Assembly (NCBI GenBank): GCA_013306675.1
Contig: JABLUY010000330.1
Location: 1 to 32,747, forward strand
Direction: 5' to 3'
DNA from: Thraustochytrium sp. TN22
Taxonomy: Eukaryota; Sar; Bigyra; Thraustochytrida; Thraustochytriidae
Length of the DNA stretch: 32,747 nt
Part shown: positions 15,459 to 30,979 of the stretch, in pieces
How the letters are laid out: each line of letters starts with the position of its first letter
Position numbering within the stretch: the first letter of the stretch is position 1
The notes under the pieces: generated by a model
Told to the model about the DNA's origin: nothing
The model's input: only the letters and a program-made list of their open reading frames with translations
Databases searched by the model: none
Translations under genes and position numbers: made by a program

Positions 15459-15574
15459 ATTAACGCACTGACAGTGATGACGCGACTGAGACGGTTACGT
15501 TTGCGAATACATCTCGATTAACGCACTGACAGTGATGACGCGACTGAGACGGTTACGTTTGCGAATACATCTCG
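15459..15574 (+). repeat. Perfect 58-bp tandem duplication
   Basis: The 58-bp unit beginning ATTAACGCACTGACAGTGAT occurs at 15459-15516 and again, without a mismatch, at 15517-15574. The second copy contains the last seven codons and stop of the minus-strand S74 gene; the first copy lies in its 3' flank. Each unit has a small palindrome, CACTGACAGTG. Confidence 0.97.
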
Positions 15575-16782
15575 TAGCGTGCAAGGCGCTCTTGCAAGTC
15601 CACCACCTGGGCTTGCAAGTCCTGCACGGCGCCAGCCAGCAACGGAACAAGCGAGGCATACTGCACAGATTTCATGCCCTGCGCGTCGGTGCGCACCACC
15701 TCGGGCACAGTGGCCTCGACCTCCTGCGCAATAAAGCCGAGCTGGCGGCCGTGGTCGAATTGCTTGGTGGGAAAGTCCTCGTGACGAAAGTAGAACGAGA
15801 CGGGCCGCAGGCCAAGCACCTGATTCAGGGCCGTCGCTCCTCCGAGCGCCGTGACATTGCGCTTCCAGCGGCGGTCTGACGCCGACGAGTACGCCGAGGT
15901 GCCCTGCACGCCGCCGTTCACGTCGAGACGGACGCTGGGCCAGCGCGTGCCGACACCCAGGTTGCCCTCCTGATCCACGACGAGCGCATCGCGCGGCGCT
16001 TGATGCGCGATCTTGACGACGCGCTGCGCGCCCTGCAAGAGGCCCAGACCAGCGTCTGCGTCGTTCTCCAGCGCCCAAGCGCCCGCCTCGCTGCGAAGCT
16101 CGACGCGGCTTGTCTTGGCGCTCGCCTCGCCCACCGCGGCCAGACCGCCGCGTGCCACCAGCGCGTCCACTTGCAGGCGGGCATCGGCGTCCAGAACAGC
16201 GCTGCGCGCGCCCTGGCTGCCTGCGCCGGCGCGCAGCTCCAGCGAGGCGGCTGTGGTCTCCAGGCGCAGGCCGGCCTCGCCCTGCGTCAGATCGGCGCGG
16301 GAGGCGCCCGGGCCGCGCAGCGTGACTGCGGCGGGCCTTTTCGCGTCCGCGATCTCGATGCCGCCGCTCACCACGCGCAGCACGGCGGCCGCGGTCGCGT
16401 TCTCCTCGCCCAGCGCCTCGCCCACGTGCAGCTGCTCCACGTGGAAGACACCCGTGCCGTGCAGCGTGGCCTGGGCGCCGTCGCCGAGCGCCAGGCGCAG
16501 CTCGGCGCCCTCCAAGCCGTCGCGCGGCACGCCGGCGATGTAGCCGAAGACGTCTTCGCCCGAGAGCCCGTGCACGAACTTGATGCCTCTCGCGTGCTCG
16601 CGTGCCGTCTCGGGCTCACCGCCCGTGCGGATCGCGATGAAGCAGTCACCCTCGTCGCCTCGCGCGCACCACGCCTCCGCGCGCCGCGTGGCCAGCGCCA
16701 GCGCCAGCGCCAGCGCCAGCGCCAGCGCCCGCGCCAGCGTCAACCGTCGCCGCGTCCCATGCCGCGCCATGCCGCGTCCCAT
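15553..16782 (-). CDS. Secreted protein with peptidase S74 (intramolecular chaperone) domain
   Basis: 409 aa. Starts at 16782 or 16770 are both possible; both precede a signal peptide whose core is an Ala-Leu repeat. Residues about 100-290 are beta-rich (for example FHVEQLHVGEAL, GLRLETTAASLELRAG), suggesting a trimeric beta-stalk. The C-terminal 108 residues are an S74/ICA domain: SDRRWKRNV with the Ser302-Lys307 dyad at the spacing of phage endosialidase and MYRF chaperone domains, then LGFIAQEVEATVPEVV and the MKSVQYASLVPLL block, ending in a coiled coil. Known: such domains trimerise the upstream fibre and cut themselves off at the Ser. Inferred: a secreted or surface trimer. Diverges from the transporter at 17160. 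Confidence 0.85.
   Translation of the reverse strand: MGRGMARHGTRRRLTLARALALALALALALATRRAEAWCARGDEGDCFIAIRTGGEPETAREHARGIKFVHGLSGEDVFGYIAGVPRDGLEGAELRLALGDGAQATLHGTGVFHVEQLHVGEALGEENATAAAVLRVVSGGIEIADAKRPAAVTLRGPGASRADLTQGEAGLRLETTAASLELRAGAGSQGARSAVLDADARLQVDALVARGGLAAVGEASAKTSRVELRSEAGAWALENDADAGLGLLQGAQRVVKIAHQAPRDALVVDQEGNLGVGTRWPSVRLDVNGGVQGTSAYSSASDRRWKRNVTALGGATALNQVLGLRPVSFYFRHEDFPTKQFDHGRQLGFIAQEVEATVPEVVRTDAQGMKSVQYASLVPLLAGAVQDLQAQVVDLQERLARYEMYSQT
16691..16738 (-). repeat. GCCAGC hexanucleotide repeat encoding the signal-peptide core
   Basis: Eight hexamer units, one with an A-to-C change, lie in frame in the S74 gene and encode alternating Ala and Leu, forming the hydrophobic core of the signal peptide. 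Confidence 0.92.
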
Positions 16783-25710: not shown

Positions 25711-26754
25711 ATGGCGGCGCCTGGCGCCTTGCACGACGCGGCGGGCCTGGCCGCAGCGCGCGAGGAGCTGACGGCCGAGACGCAGCGGCTGCAGCAGGAG
25801 GTGCTGCGTTCGCAGGAGCGCTCGCTCAAGAACCTGAGCAATGCGCAGGCCGTGGGCCAGCAGACGCTGTGGAACCTGGCGGAGCAGGACGAGGTGCTCA
25901 CCAGCGCGTCCCGGAACTTGGACGGCATGGAGGACCAGCTGGCAGAGGCAGACCGCACGCTGCAGAGGATTGCGTCGGTCTTCTCGTTCAGGCGCCTGAA
26001 GAAGCAGGGCCGGGCCTTCGAGAAAAAGTACGGCCAGGTCGCCGAGTGGAGCGGCCCACTGCAGAGGCGGCAGGGCCTGCTCGGGTACAAGACCAAGTAC
26101 TTTGCGCTGGCCGGTAGCCGACTCATGTACTTTCGCTGGAACGACACCAAGGAGGCGCCGCCCATCGCCACCTTCGACAACGCGCAGGGCGAGATGTACG
26201 TGCGTGGCGCGGCCGTCTCCTCCAACGCGCGGACACGGGAGATCACGGTGCGCCCCGCCTCGGGCAGCACGTGGCATCTGCGCGGGCTGGACGATGAGGC
26301 CTTTAAGGGGTGGAGCGTCATGCTACAGCAGCACGCCTCGGGCGACCGTAGCGAGACGGCGCGCGCGCGCGCGCTGGAGACGTTGCGGGGAACAACCGAC
26401 GCGCTCTCGAGCCCGACGCCTGGCACCGACGGCACCGACGGTACGAGCGCCACGGCCCAGTCCGAAGGAGGCACCAAGGGCACGGTCCAGGACGAAAAGC
26501 AGGCCCGCGCGGAGCTCCTCGGCTCGCCCAAGGCGGCCGTGGTCGCGCAACAACCCCAAGACGTGGACCGTGCCATGGACGCGAACTTCGACCTCATGGA
26601 CAAGATGCTCGGCGACCTGCAGCACATGGCGCTGGCGCAGCAGAACGCGCTGCTGGCACAGAATGAGAAGCTGGATCAGTTCCAGGAGCACGTGGAGGGC
26701 CGCACGGACTCGCTCAAGGCGGTGCAACGCAAGCACCAACGGCGCTTGTTTTGA
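25711..26754 (+). CDS. SNAP-25-like Qb-Qc SNARE with an internal PH domain
   Basis: 347 aa. Residues about 25-88 are a Qb SNARE helix: AVGQQTLWNLAEQDEVL with the zero-layer Gln59 in the same EQ context as SNAP-25. Residues 114-209 are a PH domain: GPLQRRQGLLGYKTKYFALA, strand MYFRWND, then EAFKGWSVMLQQH with the invariant Trp201. Residues about 285-345 are a Qc SNARE helix: MLGDLQHMALAQQNALLAQN with zero-layer Gln317. A Thr/Gly-rich linker (230-260) separates PH and Qc. There are no cysteines anywhere, so the palmitoylated linker of SNAP-25 is absent and there is no transmembrane segment. Inferred: a fusion SNARE brought to membrane by its PH domain. Tail-to-tail with Miro at 75 bp. Confidence 0.9.
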   Translation: MAAPGALHDAAGLAAAREELTAETQRLQQEVLRSQERSLKNLSNAQAVGQQTLWNLAEQDEVLTSASRNLDGMEDQLAEADRTLQRIASVFSFRRLKKQGRAFEKKYGQVAEWSGPLQRRQGLLGYKTKYFALAGSRLMYFRWNDTKEAPPIATFDNAQGEMYVRGAAVSSNARTREITVRPASGSTWHLRGLDDEAFKGWSVMLQQHASGDRSETARARALETLRGTTDALSSPTPGTDGTDGTSATAQSEGGTKGTVQDEKQARAELLGSPKAAVVAQQPQDVDRAMDANFDLMDKMLGDLQHMALAQQNALLAQNEKLDQFQEHVEGRTDSLKAVQRKHQRRLF

Positions 26755-26829: not shown

Positions 26830-29733
26830 CTACCGTGCCAGAGGCCTTGGCCGGTGCAAGGCCGCGTCGTAGTCGTAGAGGTCGAGGTCGTACTGGCGTG
26901 GCACGGGGATGGGACGCACCTCCGCGCTTTGAGGCTGCTGCGCCGTCTCGGCGCGCCGGCCGCCGAGCAGCGTATAGGCGAGGAAGCCGGCGCCGGCCAG
27001 GACGCTCGCGACGAGCGAGATGCGCAGAGTGGCGCGAATGAGGCGCTCGCGGCGCTGACGCGCGCGCTTCTCCTCGGAGACGGGGCGCGCCAGGTCCGGA
27101 CGCAGCGCAACACTCAGCAGGAGCTCGAAGAGCACGCCGAGACGAAGGCGGTTCTTGGGCAGCACGAGCGCCACGGGCTCCGGGTTGGGCAGACTGTACG
27201 CGGCGCACAGCATGGAGGCCTCCTCGATGGCCTGCGAGAGGTGCGGCGTCTTGGACGGGCGCGCGTCGCCGCCCGCGGTCTTGGACTGCGCGCCGCCCGC
27301 GCCGCCGCTCGCGGCGACGTCCTCCGCGGCCGCGCCGGGCGAAGCGCCTAGGAGGCGCTCGGCCTCGACGATGTCCACCTTGGTGGCCAGAAAGACGAGC
27401 GGGACGGTCTCCGGGATGCGCTTCTGCAGCCCGGCGAGCCAATCCACCGAGGATGGGTTGGTGCTGTCGAAGATCATGATGGCGAGGTCGCAGTCCACCA
27501 TGCCGTTGGCGAGGGCCTCCTCAAGCGCGTCGTCCTCGGCAGCCACCTCGGTGAGCACCAGGTGGCGCGCTGGCGTGGGCGCTGCGGCCGTGGTGCCGAT
27601 GCCACCGGCGCTCGGCGCCTTGATGCGCACGCGGCCCACGGCGTTGCGGCACGAGCGCTTGCGCTCCTCTACGTTGAAGTCTGACGACAGCGTGTACGTC
27701 GACTGGCTCTGGTGCTTGAGCGCACCGCCCGCATTGCTAGCAGCAGAGCCGCGCGCCCCCGACAGTTTCAAGAGCGCGCCCACCGTGTCGGCGTCCTCAC
27801 CCGATTCCGCCTGCTTCTCGGCGACGCCCTTGGACTCGGCGTCTTCCTTGTCAGTGGCGTCCGCCAGGGCGCCCTTGCCCTGGCTCCCGCCCTCCGGCTT
27901 GCGCTTGTGCTCTTGCTGACCCGTGCCCGCCGCAGCTGCCGCCGAGGGCGCAGCGCCGTCGGCCGTCACCTTGCCAGCGCCCTCCGCCTGCTTGTGCTCC
28001 GGCAGCTGTTGCTGCAAGGGCTGTTGTTGTTGTTGTTGTTGCTGCTGCTGCTGTTGTTGCTGCTGCTGCTGCGACTGAAGGCGCTGGTGGTGCTGCTGTT
28101 GCTGGTGCTGCATTTGCATCTGCGCAAAGCCCGAGCCGCAGAGCGCGTCGAGGAGCGTCGACTTGCCAACGCCGTGGGCGCCAAAGACAAAGGCGCGCAC
28201 GGTGTTGCGCTGCAGGTCGTTGCTGGAGTTCTCAAGCGAGCGCTTGCGCGTGAGCACGACGGCCGGCTCCTTGCCGCTGTCGAAGCCGAGGAAATAGAGG
28301 AAGAGCAGCGTGAGGTGCGGCTGCAGCAGCGTCACCATGTGCCACTGCGCGAGCCAACCGCCCAGCGTGACGTTGCCATTGCCGTCGACGCGCGTGCCGT
28401 TGGGGAAGTCATCCAAGAAGCCGAGAGCCGCGGGCGCCGGCCCGCAGCGCAGCGCCTCCTCGGCCGTGAGCAGGTCGTCCGGGTCGCCGCCGCCGCCGCC
28501 GCCCGCCAGATTGAGGGCGGCCGCGCTGCGCACGGCGGTCGCGGCATCCGAGGAGGTGGCGGCGTCGCTGGCAGCCTCGTCCAGCATGCTGGCGTAGCGC
28601 GCGGCGGTCCAGGGCCGCATGCCGTTGGGGCAGATGGAGAAGAGCTCGGCGCGCTCGGCGGGGCTCAAGGCCTGGTCGCGGTCGCGGTCGAACTGGTGGA
28701 AGATGTCGGCCAAGAAGGCCTGCGCCTGCTTGCTGAGCTCCACGGAGCGCTCGCGCACCGTGCCGGGCATGGGCAGCACCCGGGAGGCGGCCGAGACCGG
28801 CGCCGCGGGCGCAGGTGCGGCGCCGGTCTGCAGCGCCAGCACCTTGCGCGGCACCATGAGGCGAAGACGGTCGTTGTAGCCGAACTGGCGCAGCACGAGC
28901 CAGGCGGCCTCGGCGCGGTTGCGCTGGATGAACTTCTTGTGGATCTGCAAGAAGCCCTGGAAGGTGATGCCGGAGGCCGACACGTTCCCAGCGCCCTCGG
29001 CCTGCAGCATGTTCTTGACGTCCTCGATGTCCGTGGGCTGCAGGCGCGCGCCGAAGCAGGTCTCCTGGAAGTCGATGAGCTCGGCGTCCGAGAGCACGTC
29101 GTCGCGGTCCTGGTCGAAGATGCGGAAGACGCGGCGCAGCGCGCCCACGAAGCGCGAGGTGAGCTCGGTCGTCTTGGTGTCGAAGAGCGGCGCGATCGGG
29201 TAGACGACGGCCTGCTGCGCGAGCTGGAAGACGTCCGACACGTTGATGTTGAGCTTGGCCGAGCACACGGTGCAGGCGTCGACCTGGCGGAAGTCGTCCA
29301 GCACGGGGCCCATCCTGCTGCGCAGTTCCTCGGCGTGCTCGTCCGACTTGGCGAGCAGGTCGCTCTTGTTGCCGACCACGACAATGGAGCCCTTGAAGAC
29401 CTTGGTCACCTCCGGCAGCCAGTAGGTGCGCACGCGCGCGAGCGTGGCCTCTTCCGCGGAGCTGTAGACCACGATGACCACGTCGGCCTGCGCCACCTGC
29501 TTGAGCGTGAGCGCGCGGTCCTCCTGCGCCGAGCTCGTGTCGGTGATGGACAGCGCGATGCCGTCCGCCGTCTCCTCCGGCGGCACGCGCACCTGCTGCA
29601 GCACGCGCGGCACGGACTCGGGGAAGATGCTGCTCACCAGCGTCGTGATGAGCGACGTCTTGCCGCAGCCGGCGTCGCCCACCACCACCATGTCCACGGA
29701 CCGCCGCTGGGCGCCGCCATCCTGCTTCAGCAT
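26830..29733 (-). CDS. Miro (RHOT/Gem1) mitochondrial GTPase with polyQ insert
   Basis: 967 aa against about 620 in animals. Order: N-terminal GTPase (P-loop GDAGCGKTS at 19-27, DTSSAQED, NKSD), EF-hand 1 (FDQDRDDVLSDAELIDF), helical linker, EF-hand 2 (FDRDRDQALSPAERAELF) with its LM-like partner (VDGNGNVTLGGWLAQWHM), second GTPase (P-loop GAHGVGKST, Lys524; TKVD), a transmembrane helix (ISLVASVLAGAGFLAYTLLG) and a tail of about 40 residues. The second GTPase is interrupted straight after its P-loop by about 190 low-complexity residues including 17 consecutive Gln. Known: Miro sits on the outer mitochondrial membrane and controls mitochondrial movement, ER contacts and shape. The start at 29733 gives the normal short lead into the P-loop. 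Confidence 0.95.
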   Translation of the reverse strand: MLKQDGGAQRRSVDMVVVGDAGCGKTSLITTLVSSIFPESVPRVLQQVRVPPEETADGIALSITDTSSAQEDRALTLKQVAQADVVIVVYSSAEEATLARVRTYWLPEVTKVFKGSIVVVGNKSDLLAKSDEHAEELRSRMGPVLDDFRQVDACTVCSAKLNINVSDVFQLAQQAVVYPIAPLFDTKTTELTSRFVGALRRVFRIFDQDRDDVLSDAELIDFQETCFGARLQPTDIEDVKNMLQAEGAGNVSASGITFQGFLQIHKKFIQRNRAEAAWLVLRQFGYNDRLRLMVPRKVLALQTGAAPAPAAPVSAASRVLPMPGTVRERSVELSKQAQAFLADIFHQFDRDRDQALSPAERAELFSICPNGMRPWTAARYASMLDEAASDAATSSDAATAVRSAAALNLAGGGGGGDPDDLLTAEEALRCGPAPAALGFLDDFPNGTRVDGNGNVTLGGWLAQWHMVTLLQPHLTLLFLYFLGFDSGKEPAVVLTRKRSLENSSNDLQRNTVRAFVFGAHGVGKSTLLDALCGSGFAQMQMQHQQQQHHQRLQSQQQQQQQQQQQQQQQQQPLQQQLPEHKQAEGAGKVTADGAAPSAAAAAGTGQQEHKRKPEGGSQGKGALADATDKEDAESKGVAEKQAESGEDADTVGALLKLSGARGSAASNAGGALKHQSQSTYTLSSDFNVEERKRSCRNAVGRVRIKAPSAGGIGTTAAAPTPARHLVLTEVAAEDDALEEALANGMVDCDLAIMIFDSTNPSSVDWLAGLQKRIPETVPLVFLATKVDIVEAERLLGASPGAAAEDVAASGGAGGAQSKTAGGDARPSKTPHLSQAIEEASMLCAAYSLPNPEPVALVLPKNRLRLGVLFELLLSVALRPDLARPVSEEKRARQRRERLIRATLRISLVASVLAGAGFLAYTLLGGRRAETAQQPQSAEVRPIPVPRQYDLDLYDYDAALHRPRPLAR
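28021..28071 (-). repeat. In-frame CAA/CAG repeat (17 Gln) in Miro
   Basis: Seventeen Gln codons, a mixture of CAA and CAG, lie within the low-complexity insert of the second GTPase domain. Further Gln/His-rich sequence flanks it on both sides. Confidence 0.95.
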
Positions 29734-30007
29734 TCTGCCGCCGGCGCCCGCGCGCCGACGCCGCTGCCCGGAGCCCTCCTCCGCGCCGCCGCCGACCGCG
29801 CCGACCGTGCCGCGCAGTGGTTTTGCGGTTTGCCACCCGCCATCCTGCCCTGCAGCAGAGCAGACTCGGAGCAGAGCAGAGCAGAGCAGAGCTTTCCAAG
29901 TCCGAGTCGTCGCGCGCAGGCCAAAACCGTTTCCGCCCCGGACTCGGACTCGGGCTTGGGCTCGGGCTCGGGCTGCAACTTGGGCTCCGGCGCCGACTCG
30001 AGCCGCC
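29734..30007. promoter_or_regulatory. Divergent promoter region, Miro / ACBP-ankyrin
   Basis: 274 bp between divergent starts, the shortest such gap in the window. It carries an AGCAG/AGAGC run (29864-29891) and GGACTCG / GGGCTC repeats (29938-29975) beside the ACBP start. No TATA box seen. Confidence 0.55.
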
Positions 30008-30979
30008 ATGAGCGCGCGCGCGGCAGCGGCGGTCGCCGCGGTGGCCGGCGCGGTGGCCGCACTGCTCGTGCAGCCGGCCGCGCTCTCGGACCGCCGCGCG
30101 GTGGGCGCCGCGCTCGTGCTCGCCGGCGTCGGCGTGCTTACAGCCGTGCTGCAGAGCCAGACCGCCACGCCGCAGATCAGGCCCGTGGCCGGCGCCGGCG
30201 ACGAGCGCCGCTTCGAGCAGGCCAAGGCCGCGGCCAGCAGCGGCGCGCTTGGCAAGATCGACCAGGACGCGCAGCTCGAGCTCTACGCATGGTTTAAGCA
30301 GGCCACGGCCGGCGACTGCGACACGCCCAAGCCCTCCATGCTCGACATGGTCGCGCTCGCCAAGTGGAAGGCGTGGATGCGCGTCAAGAGCGCATCCCCG
30401 GCCGAGGCCCGCGCCGCCTACGTGGCGGTCGTCGACCGCCTGGCGCCCGGCTGGCACGAGAACAGCGGCGCCTCCGCGACGCCCAAGCCAGGCACTGGCG
30501 GCGGCAGCAGTGGCGGCGGCGGCGGCTTGGCGCCGCGCGTCAGCACCATGGCCCAGATGGGCGACGACAAGGCCGACGAGGACCTGAGCGCAACCGAGCG
30601 CCTCTTCTCGCTTGCCGGCAGCGTCGACCTGGACGGCCTCGCCGCGGCCCTGAGTGCGGCCTCCTATTCAGGAGACACGCTGCGCGCCCTCGTCGGAGAG
30701 GACCGCGAGACGCTCCTGCACATGGCCGCAGACCGTGGCGAGGTTGGCATGGTGGACCTGCTCATGGGCCTCGGCGCCGACATTGAGGCACGCGACGTGG
30801 ATGGTCTCACGCCACTCGCCTACGCCCTCATGAATGACCACCGCGACCTTGCCCTCCACCTCGTGCGCAAGTACGGCGCCGACCCTCGCGTGGAGGGTGA
30901 GGACGGCGAGCCGATTCTCAAGATGTGTGGCACCAAGCTCGCCAAGGACCTCCTCGACGCCAGCCCTGTTGCCCAGTGA
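30008..30979 (+). CDS. Membrane-anchored acyl-CoA-binding protein with ankyrin repeats
   Basis: 323 aa. Two hydrophobic segments (about 6-24 and 32-48) form an N-terminal membrane anchor. An acyl-CoA-binding domain follows (about 66-150) with the family's LYAWFKQATAGDC and MLDMVALAKWKAW blocks, which hold the Tyr and Lys residues that contact CoA. After a Gly/Ser linker (155-175) come ankyrin repeats (about 232-295: ETLLHMAADRGEVGMVDLL and GLTPLAYALMNDHRDLALHL). This order matches plant ACBP1/ACBP2 and resembles ACBD6 with an added anchor. Likely role: holding and trafficking acyl-CoA at ER or another membrane while docking a partner. It diverges from Miro, and an AATAAA lies at 31104-31109 downstream. 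Confidence 0.92.
   Translation: MSARAAAAVAAVAGAVAALLVQPAALSDRRAVGAALVLAGVGVLTAVLQSQTATPQIRPVAGAGDERRFEQAKAAASSGALGKIDQDAQLELYAWFKQATAGDCDTPKPSMLDMVALAKWKAWMRVKSASPAEARAAYVAVVDRLAPGWHENSGASATPKPGTGGGSSGGGGGLAPRVSTMAQMGDDKADEDLSATERLFSLAGSVDLDGLAAALSAASYSGDTLRALVGEDRETLLHMAADRGEVGMVDLLMGLGADIEARDVDGLTPLAYALMNDHRDLALHLVRKYGADPRVEGEDGEPILKMCGTKLAKDLLDASPVAQ

Follow-up and report, generated by a model that had tools for sequence, protein, structure and literature searches.

In the genome of Thraustochytrium sp. TN22, a single gene encodes a Qb-type SNARE helix, a PH domain, and a Qc-type SNARE helix in this order, with a zero-layer Gln in both helices and with neither a cysteine nor a membrane span in its product as translated. 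The Qb-PH-Qc arrangement is real and apparently intact, and it looks to be a new domain order in a known family. The gene lies in the window, that is, the whole stretch of 32,747 nucleotides that was analysed, which is one whole contig (number 256) of a genome of 37.9 million bases in 453 contigs. The features of the gene and the evidence on which each is based are as follows.

25711..26754, + strand: Qb helix-PH-Qc helix gene, 347 amino acids and a stop codon (translation, GC at third codon positions, six-frame codon score)
25741..25977, + strand: helix 1, residues 11-89, Qb-type SNARE motif (V-SNARE_C, alignment to the SNAP-25 N-helix, z 6.9)
25885..25887, + strand: codon (CAG) of the zero-layer Gln59 (aligned to SNAP-25 Gln53; layer register)
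25981..26034, + strand: basic, aromatic stretch, residues 91-108, candidate membrane contact with a putative role (composition)
26047..26340, + strand: PH domain, residues 113-210 (Pfam PH_8; Foldseek and VIA-align matches)
26341..26565, + strand: low-complexity linker to the start of helix 2, residues 211-285 (composition, pLDDT)
26566..26751, + strand: helix 2, residues 286-347, Qc-type SNARE motif (alignment to the SNAP-25 C-helix, z 11.6)
26659..26661, + strand: codon (CAG) of the zero-layer Gln317 (aligned to SNAP-25 Gln174; layer register)

Reading frame and coding signal

Translation of positions 25711-26754 of the forward strand gives 347 amino acids and a stop codon in a single uninterrupted frame, which spans both helices and the PH domain and is open upstream of the ATG as far as 25192. 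GC at third codon positions (GC3) is 0.86-0.95 in five segments of the 347-residue frame and 0.88-0.95 in five neighbouring conserved genes, compared with only 0.63 in the part of the open frame that precedes the ATG, which does not look coding. When the six frames of 25711-26754 were compared, the SNARE frame alone was free of stops and had a positive codon score. Therefore, the GC3 contrast and the six-frame codon scores together support the ATG at 25711 and one gene, and a single uninterrupted gene starting at this ATG may be regarded as well supported.

An artefact of the gene model would mean either two adjacent genes or a frame that is open by chance. In this GC-rich DNA many frames are open (121 ORFs of at least 100 amino acids), and the linker segment of residues 216-285 has a neutral codon score (0.001 per codon), although this value is as expected from its odd composition. 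However, the one frame of six without a stop is also the sole frame with a positive codon score, GC3 is coding-like in every segment, and the PH domain and both SNARE helices share one frame; an artefact is hardly credible. The RNA structure of the 3' flank was not better than that of shuffled sequences (z 0.35), no Rfam families or tRNAs were found in the window, and the NCBIfam profile search gave nothing useful.

The two SNARE helices

The best match of the whole sequence among all PDB chains was SNAP-25 (E 4.1e-5), which aligned in two stretches and in SNAP-25's own order. Since the single stretches were weak (independent E only 0.42 and 0.03), order and specificity were tested by local alignment. 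Helix 1 scored z 6.9 against the Qb fragment of SNAP-25 and z -0.1 against the Qc fragment, whereas helix 2 scored z 11.6 against the Qc fragment and z 0.4 against the Qb fragment; none of 1000 shuffles scored as high as either matching helix. The order of a Qb followed by a Qc helix, which had been proposed in an earlier sequence-only reading of this DNA, is borne out by the matched and crossed scores. The same reading had placed a zero-layer Gln at residues 59 and 317, and both are in register with SNAP-25: in the PDB alignment, Q59 lies over Q53 and Q317 over Q174, in native SNAP-25 numbering as given by the construct offset.

SNARE layers were assigned by a simple 3/4 heptad spacing from the zero-layer Gln. 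With the zero layer excluded, 11 of the 15 layers are hydrophobic (A/V/I/L/M/F/W) in each helix, a count that was reached in 14 of 20000 shuffles of helix 1 and in 23 of 20000 shuffles of helix 2, and moving the register by 1 to 3 residues in either direction gave at most 8 hydrophobic layers. The non-hydrophobic layers are -7, -6, -3, and -2 in helix 1, and -2, +4, +7, and +8 in helix 2. In this simple register, the polar residues His342 and Arg345 occupy layers +7 and +8 of helix 2, next to Leu346 and Phe347.

In searches with SNARE profiles, suggested earlier as a check, Pfam V-SNARE_C matched residues 47-87 of helix 1 below the cut-off (E 0.0021), and no SNARE family in Pfam matched helix 2. 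The Pfam SNAP-25 family (PF00835) matched neither the protein nor the genome, and the search controls likewise gave no match. In the genome searches, the identity to the SNAP-25 fragments was 27% for helix 1 and 33% for helix 2. It had been stated that both helices closely follow the SNAP-25 pattern; this wording is somewhat too strong, given these identities and His342 and Arg345 at layers +7 and +8. As judged from the alignments, SNAP-25 and the 347-residue protein are distant but clear relatives, and the motif order, the zero layers, and the lack of a membrane span mark the predicted protein as a member of the Qbc-SNARE family.

The PH domain

Residues 118-207 matched Pfam PH_8 with an E of 1.2e-6, over positions 6-87 of the 89 in the profile. 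The score was 29.2 bits in the protein search, just short of the cut-off of 30, and 32.7 bits, above the cut-off, in the six-frame genome search. The fold predicted for residues 113-210, from models made without an alignment, matches PH domains in Foldseek and VIA-align and has the seven-strand barrel and C-terminal helix of a PH fold; mean pLDDT was 56.4 and 53.9 in these single-sequence models, and no Foldseek match had an E <0.001. Both the PH profile search and the structure prediction, the latter from low-confidence models, agree with the earlier claim of a complete PH domain between the SNARE helices.

Because the confidence of the models is low, a basic pocket is not readable from them. 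W201 lies inside the helix of residues 195-210 and corresponds to the conserved Trp of the PH C-terminal helix. Basic residues are found near the start of the domain (R119/R120, K127, and K129), a pattern placed as in lipid-binding PH domains; many PH domains, however, bind no phosphoinositides. The structural matches include the split PH domain of PLC-gamma2 with Rac2, and SKIP with SifA.

Linker, cysteines, and membrane span

The PH domain is preceded by a basic stretch, with seven K/R, two D/E, and four aromatic residues in residues 88-112 of the protein. The linker that follows it (residues 211-285) has no aromatic residue; it was modelled partly as short helices, and pLDDT is <50 across most of residues 229-282. 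The highest 19-residue Kyte-Doolittle mean in the protein is 0.41, indicating no membrane span, and none of the 347 residues is a cysteine, both as had been noted before. The palmitoylated cysteine cluster of a membrane anchor of the SNAP-25/SNAP-23 type is absent from the linker. At the rate of four neighbouring genes (19 cysteines in 1940 residues), 347 residues would be free of cysteine by chance in about 3% of cases, and SNAP-29 and SNAP-47 are also described as having no linker cysteines (PMC6551745). Therefore, the absence of cysteine is not remarkable among Qbc-SNAREs, and it was rejected as strong evidence; the sequence-only reading was right about the absence, which is less unusual than it implied.

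Comparison with known SNAREs

The protein has the Qb and Qc helices in the same order as SNAP-25 and SNAP-23, a zero-layer Gln in both, and no membrane span. It resembles SNAP-47 in being a Qbc-SNARE with a PH domain and without linker cysteines; however, the PH domain of SNAP-47 lies N-terminal to both SNARE motifs, whereas here it lies between them (residues 118-207, with helices at 11-89 and 286-347). SNAP-29 is not known to have a PH domain, and Vam7, the yeast vacuolar Qc-SNARE, has a single SNARE helix and a PX rather than a PH domain, in contrast to the two SNARE helices and the PH domain found here. The likeness to SNAP-29 lies in a Qbc-SNARE without linker cysteines (PMC6551745), and that to Vam7 in a soluble SNARE with a lipid-reading domain, since the PX domain of the vacuolar Qc-SNARE is described as binding PI3P (PMC6994237).

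Unlike the present protein with its PH domain and longer linker, SNAP-25 and SNAP-23 have a short linker with palmitoylated cysteines (PMC6422494). According to the same source, the SNAP-25 linker opens with palmitoylated cysteines and lysines where helix 1 reaches the membrane, its lipid contacts at this defined place help to trigger fusion and to widen the pore, and spacers that shift these contacts make release moderately slower (PMC6422494). SNAP-47 is reported to be recruited to autophagosomes via its PH domain by PI(4,5)P2 (PMC10968809), so that a mechanism of lipid recruitment has a precedent, and a 2025 review describes it as the first SNARE in which a lipid-binding domain was discovered (PMC12520108).

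Among the papers listed on SNAREs with PH domains and on SNAP-47, none has a title or abstract opening that places a PH domain between the SNARE motifs. The available text of a SNARE phylogeny (PMC2639358) does not contain the term 'PH domain', and the PH passage in the available text of PMC3428585 concerns dynamin. A PH-bearing Qbc-SNARE as such is already known in SNAP-47, and it is the position of the PH domain, after helix 1, that looks new. If the PH domain binds lipid, the protein may, by analogy, work like SNAP-47; orthology to SNAP-47 is not implied.

Proposed mechanism and alternatives

The reading that we favour, and consider fairly probable, is that of a soluble Qbc-SNARE of the SNAP-25 family in which the PH domain and the basic stretch serve as a reversible, phosphoinositide-dependent anchor. 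In a four-helix fusion bundle, the protein would contribute two helices, with a Qa-SNARE and an R-SNARE of its own cell as partners; the most likely site is the plasma membrane or an endosomal membrane. Since the PH domain comes directly after helix 1 and the basic stretch, a lipid-reading module would be situated where the bundle meets the membrane. Together with the preceding basic stretch, the PH domain may keep the membrane-proximal end of helix 1 next to a membrane that bears phosphoinositides, at a point close to the position of the palmitoylated cysteines of SNAP-25, and the flexible linker of about 75 residues would run from the PH domain back along the bundle to the start of helix 2. 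Recruitment would then be reversible, fusion competence would follow the local lipid, and phosphoinositide binding may replace palmitoylation. The polar layers +7 and +8 of helix 2 speak against this lipid-anchor reading, as does the failure to find a relative with the same domain order.

The protein may instead be a Qbc-SNARE whose PH domain has a structural role or recognises a protein partner (a tether, a small GTPase, or an SM protein), while the basic stretch and the Qa partner make contact with the membrane. The structural matches would fit this, as they include PH domains with protein partners (PLC-gamma2 with Rac2, SKIP with SifA), but the basic residues at the presumed PH lipid-site positions do not. 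Among the known Qbc-SNAREs, SNAP-29 has neither linker cysteines nor a membrane anchor and its targeting is described as largely open (PMC6551745), which would leave room for recruitment by a protein, whereas SNAP-47 offers the precedent for recruitment by lipid (PMC10968809, PMC12520108). A protein-binding or structural PH domain is thus conceivable, though we think it rather unlikely.

A regulatory or inhibitory SNARE would join bundles but zipper poorly at the membrane end, and such a protein might look as helix 2 does, with His342 and Arg345 in layers +7 and +8. However, Leu346 and Phe347 stand directly beside layer +8, the end of helix 2 is only a few residues from that of SNAP-25, and the gene is the sole two-helix Qbc candidate found in the genome, so that a purely inhibitory role becomes less likely; we regard it as improbable. 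Even less plausible is a protein whose two helices enter different bundles, with the PH-bearing linker bridging the complexes. For SNAP-29, a rigid linker that separates the helices has been discussed as a theoretical option (PMC6551745), but residues 211-285 are of low complexity, mostly of low confidence in the model, and only partly modelled as short helices, and a flexible stretch of this length could presumably return along one bundle.

A natural protein with a folded PH domain near the place of the SNAP-25 lipid contacts would let one ask whether a reversible lipid-reading module could stand in for a covalent anchor. It would join SNAP-47 as a second Qbc-SNARE with a PH domain, and the different position of that domain would point to more than one origin of lipid-reading SNAREs. 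For thraustochytrids, which are cultured on an industrial scale as a source of omega-3 oils, it would imply a step of secretion under lipid control. A more specific scheme is put forward only tentatively: the gene might encode a thraustochytrid secretory Qbc-SNARE, perhaps the only one of the lineage, in which a permanent lipid anchor was swapped, independently of SNAP-47, for a PH domain at nearly the same position in the chain, with a phosphoinositide directly gating the last zippering step. The domain order is known from one genome, and its conservation is not deducible from it.

Other SNAREs in the genome

Queries with the whole protein and with the region of helix 2 matched only the gene itself, and no second Qbc-SNARE was found with them in the genome. 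The SNAP-25 Qb fragment matched the long open reading frame L043 first (E 0.076) and then the SNARE gene (E 0.56); the 568 residues read from L043 do not have the look of a SNARE. The SNAP-25 Qc fragment matched the SNARE gene first (E 0.005), followed by L015/L046 (E 0.009), a Qc-like SNARE distinct from it and with a terminal hydrophobic span. The SNARE gene is the sole gene found in the genome that matches both SNAP-25 helices, with weak scores and in a search that may miss genes split by introns, and it is the best candidate for the secretory Qbc-SNARE of this genome.

Qa-, Qb-, and Qc-like SNAREs, as classed by inspection, are also present, and most of those read have a terminal hydrophobic span. 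L011, in which both a Syntaxin and a SNARE domain were matched, is a Qa-SNARE of the syntaxin type, and five of the eight synaptobrevin-family matches listed for the genome are above the cut-off. The Qa-SNARE L011 and the synaptobrevin-family matches are named here as candidate partners.

Two other frames carry SNARE-like sequence. A Qb-type SNARE (L007, positions 553-1707, + strand, contig C1) matched V-SNARE_C above the cut-off (E 2.6e-6); its frame ends with MKSWWRIGSIQKK soon past the SNARE helix and has no membrane span, and a later exon is possible. A frame of 708 amino acids (L019, positions 274-2400, - strand, contig C34) has a Qa-type SNARE helix, with a match to the SNARE profile below the cut-off (E 0.0022). 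Next come a Gly-rich hydrophobic stretch, a region that weakly resembles the DysF domain of dysferlin (E 0.2), and, at the C-terminus, a helix with a Gln in SNARE-like register. As a Qa-Qb-Qc fusion this frame is doubtful: its two later helices scored only z 1.7 and 3.4 against SNAP-25 and matched no SNARE in the PDB.

Search for relatives

No relative of the whole protein was found at E <=0.001 among the 7999 candidates sharing most words with it, and none of residues 105-215 at E <=1, for which 68 candidates shared words. The search demands exact five-residue words, which a fast-evolving SNARE may escape. As a control, the Rpn7 gene of the window gave 1428 matches among 7991 scored candidates; the best-scoring match was 76% identical and came from Hondaea fermentalgiana, so that thraustochytrid proteins are present in the database searched, the sources of which include EukProt and MMETSP. 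Together with the omega-3 PUFA synthase frames of the genome, this Rpn7 match indicates a thraustochytrid or a close relative. Viral contigs gave two pattern matches and no relative. The search for the same order in other genomes, which had been suggested earlier, yielded no relative with Qb-PH-Qc, but a word-based search is weak for this purpose, and it is not concluded that the gene is unique to its source organism.

Neighbouring genes and other observations

The neighbours of the SNARE gene encode Rpn7, glutamate dehydrogenase, a SET-domain protein, a PreP-type peptidase, a sulfatase, a Miro-type GTPase, and an acyl-CoA-binding ankyrin protein. These are ordinary genes and suggest no functional link to the SNARE. 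The frame of the Miro-type GTPase (26830-30255, - strand) overlaps that of the acyl-CoA-binding ankyrin-repeat protein (29474-30979, + strand); the overlap involves the open ends of the two frames and not their Ras and ACBP domains. A frame of 409 amino acids at positions 15553-16782 (- strand) of the window matched Peptidase_S74, the chaperone of endosialidase (E 5.9e-13), in this protist contig. Peptidase_S74 is a chaperone domain that cleaves itself and is known chiefly from the tail proteins of phages.

Elsewhere in the genome, contig C410 has a frame of 5691 amino acids with repeated ketosynthase-like matches. Contig C124 (26703-41142) has a frame of 3044 amino acids for a PfaA-type omega-3 PUFA synthase with a divergent frame of 2083 amino acids beside it, as is the case in thraustochytrids.
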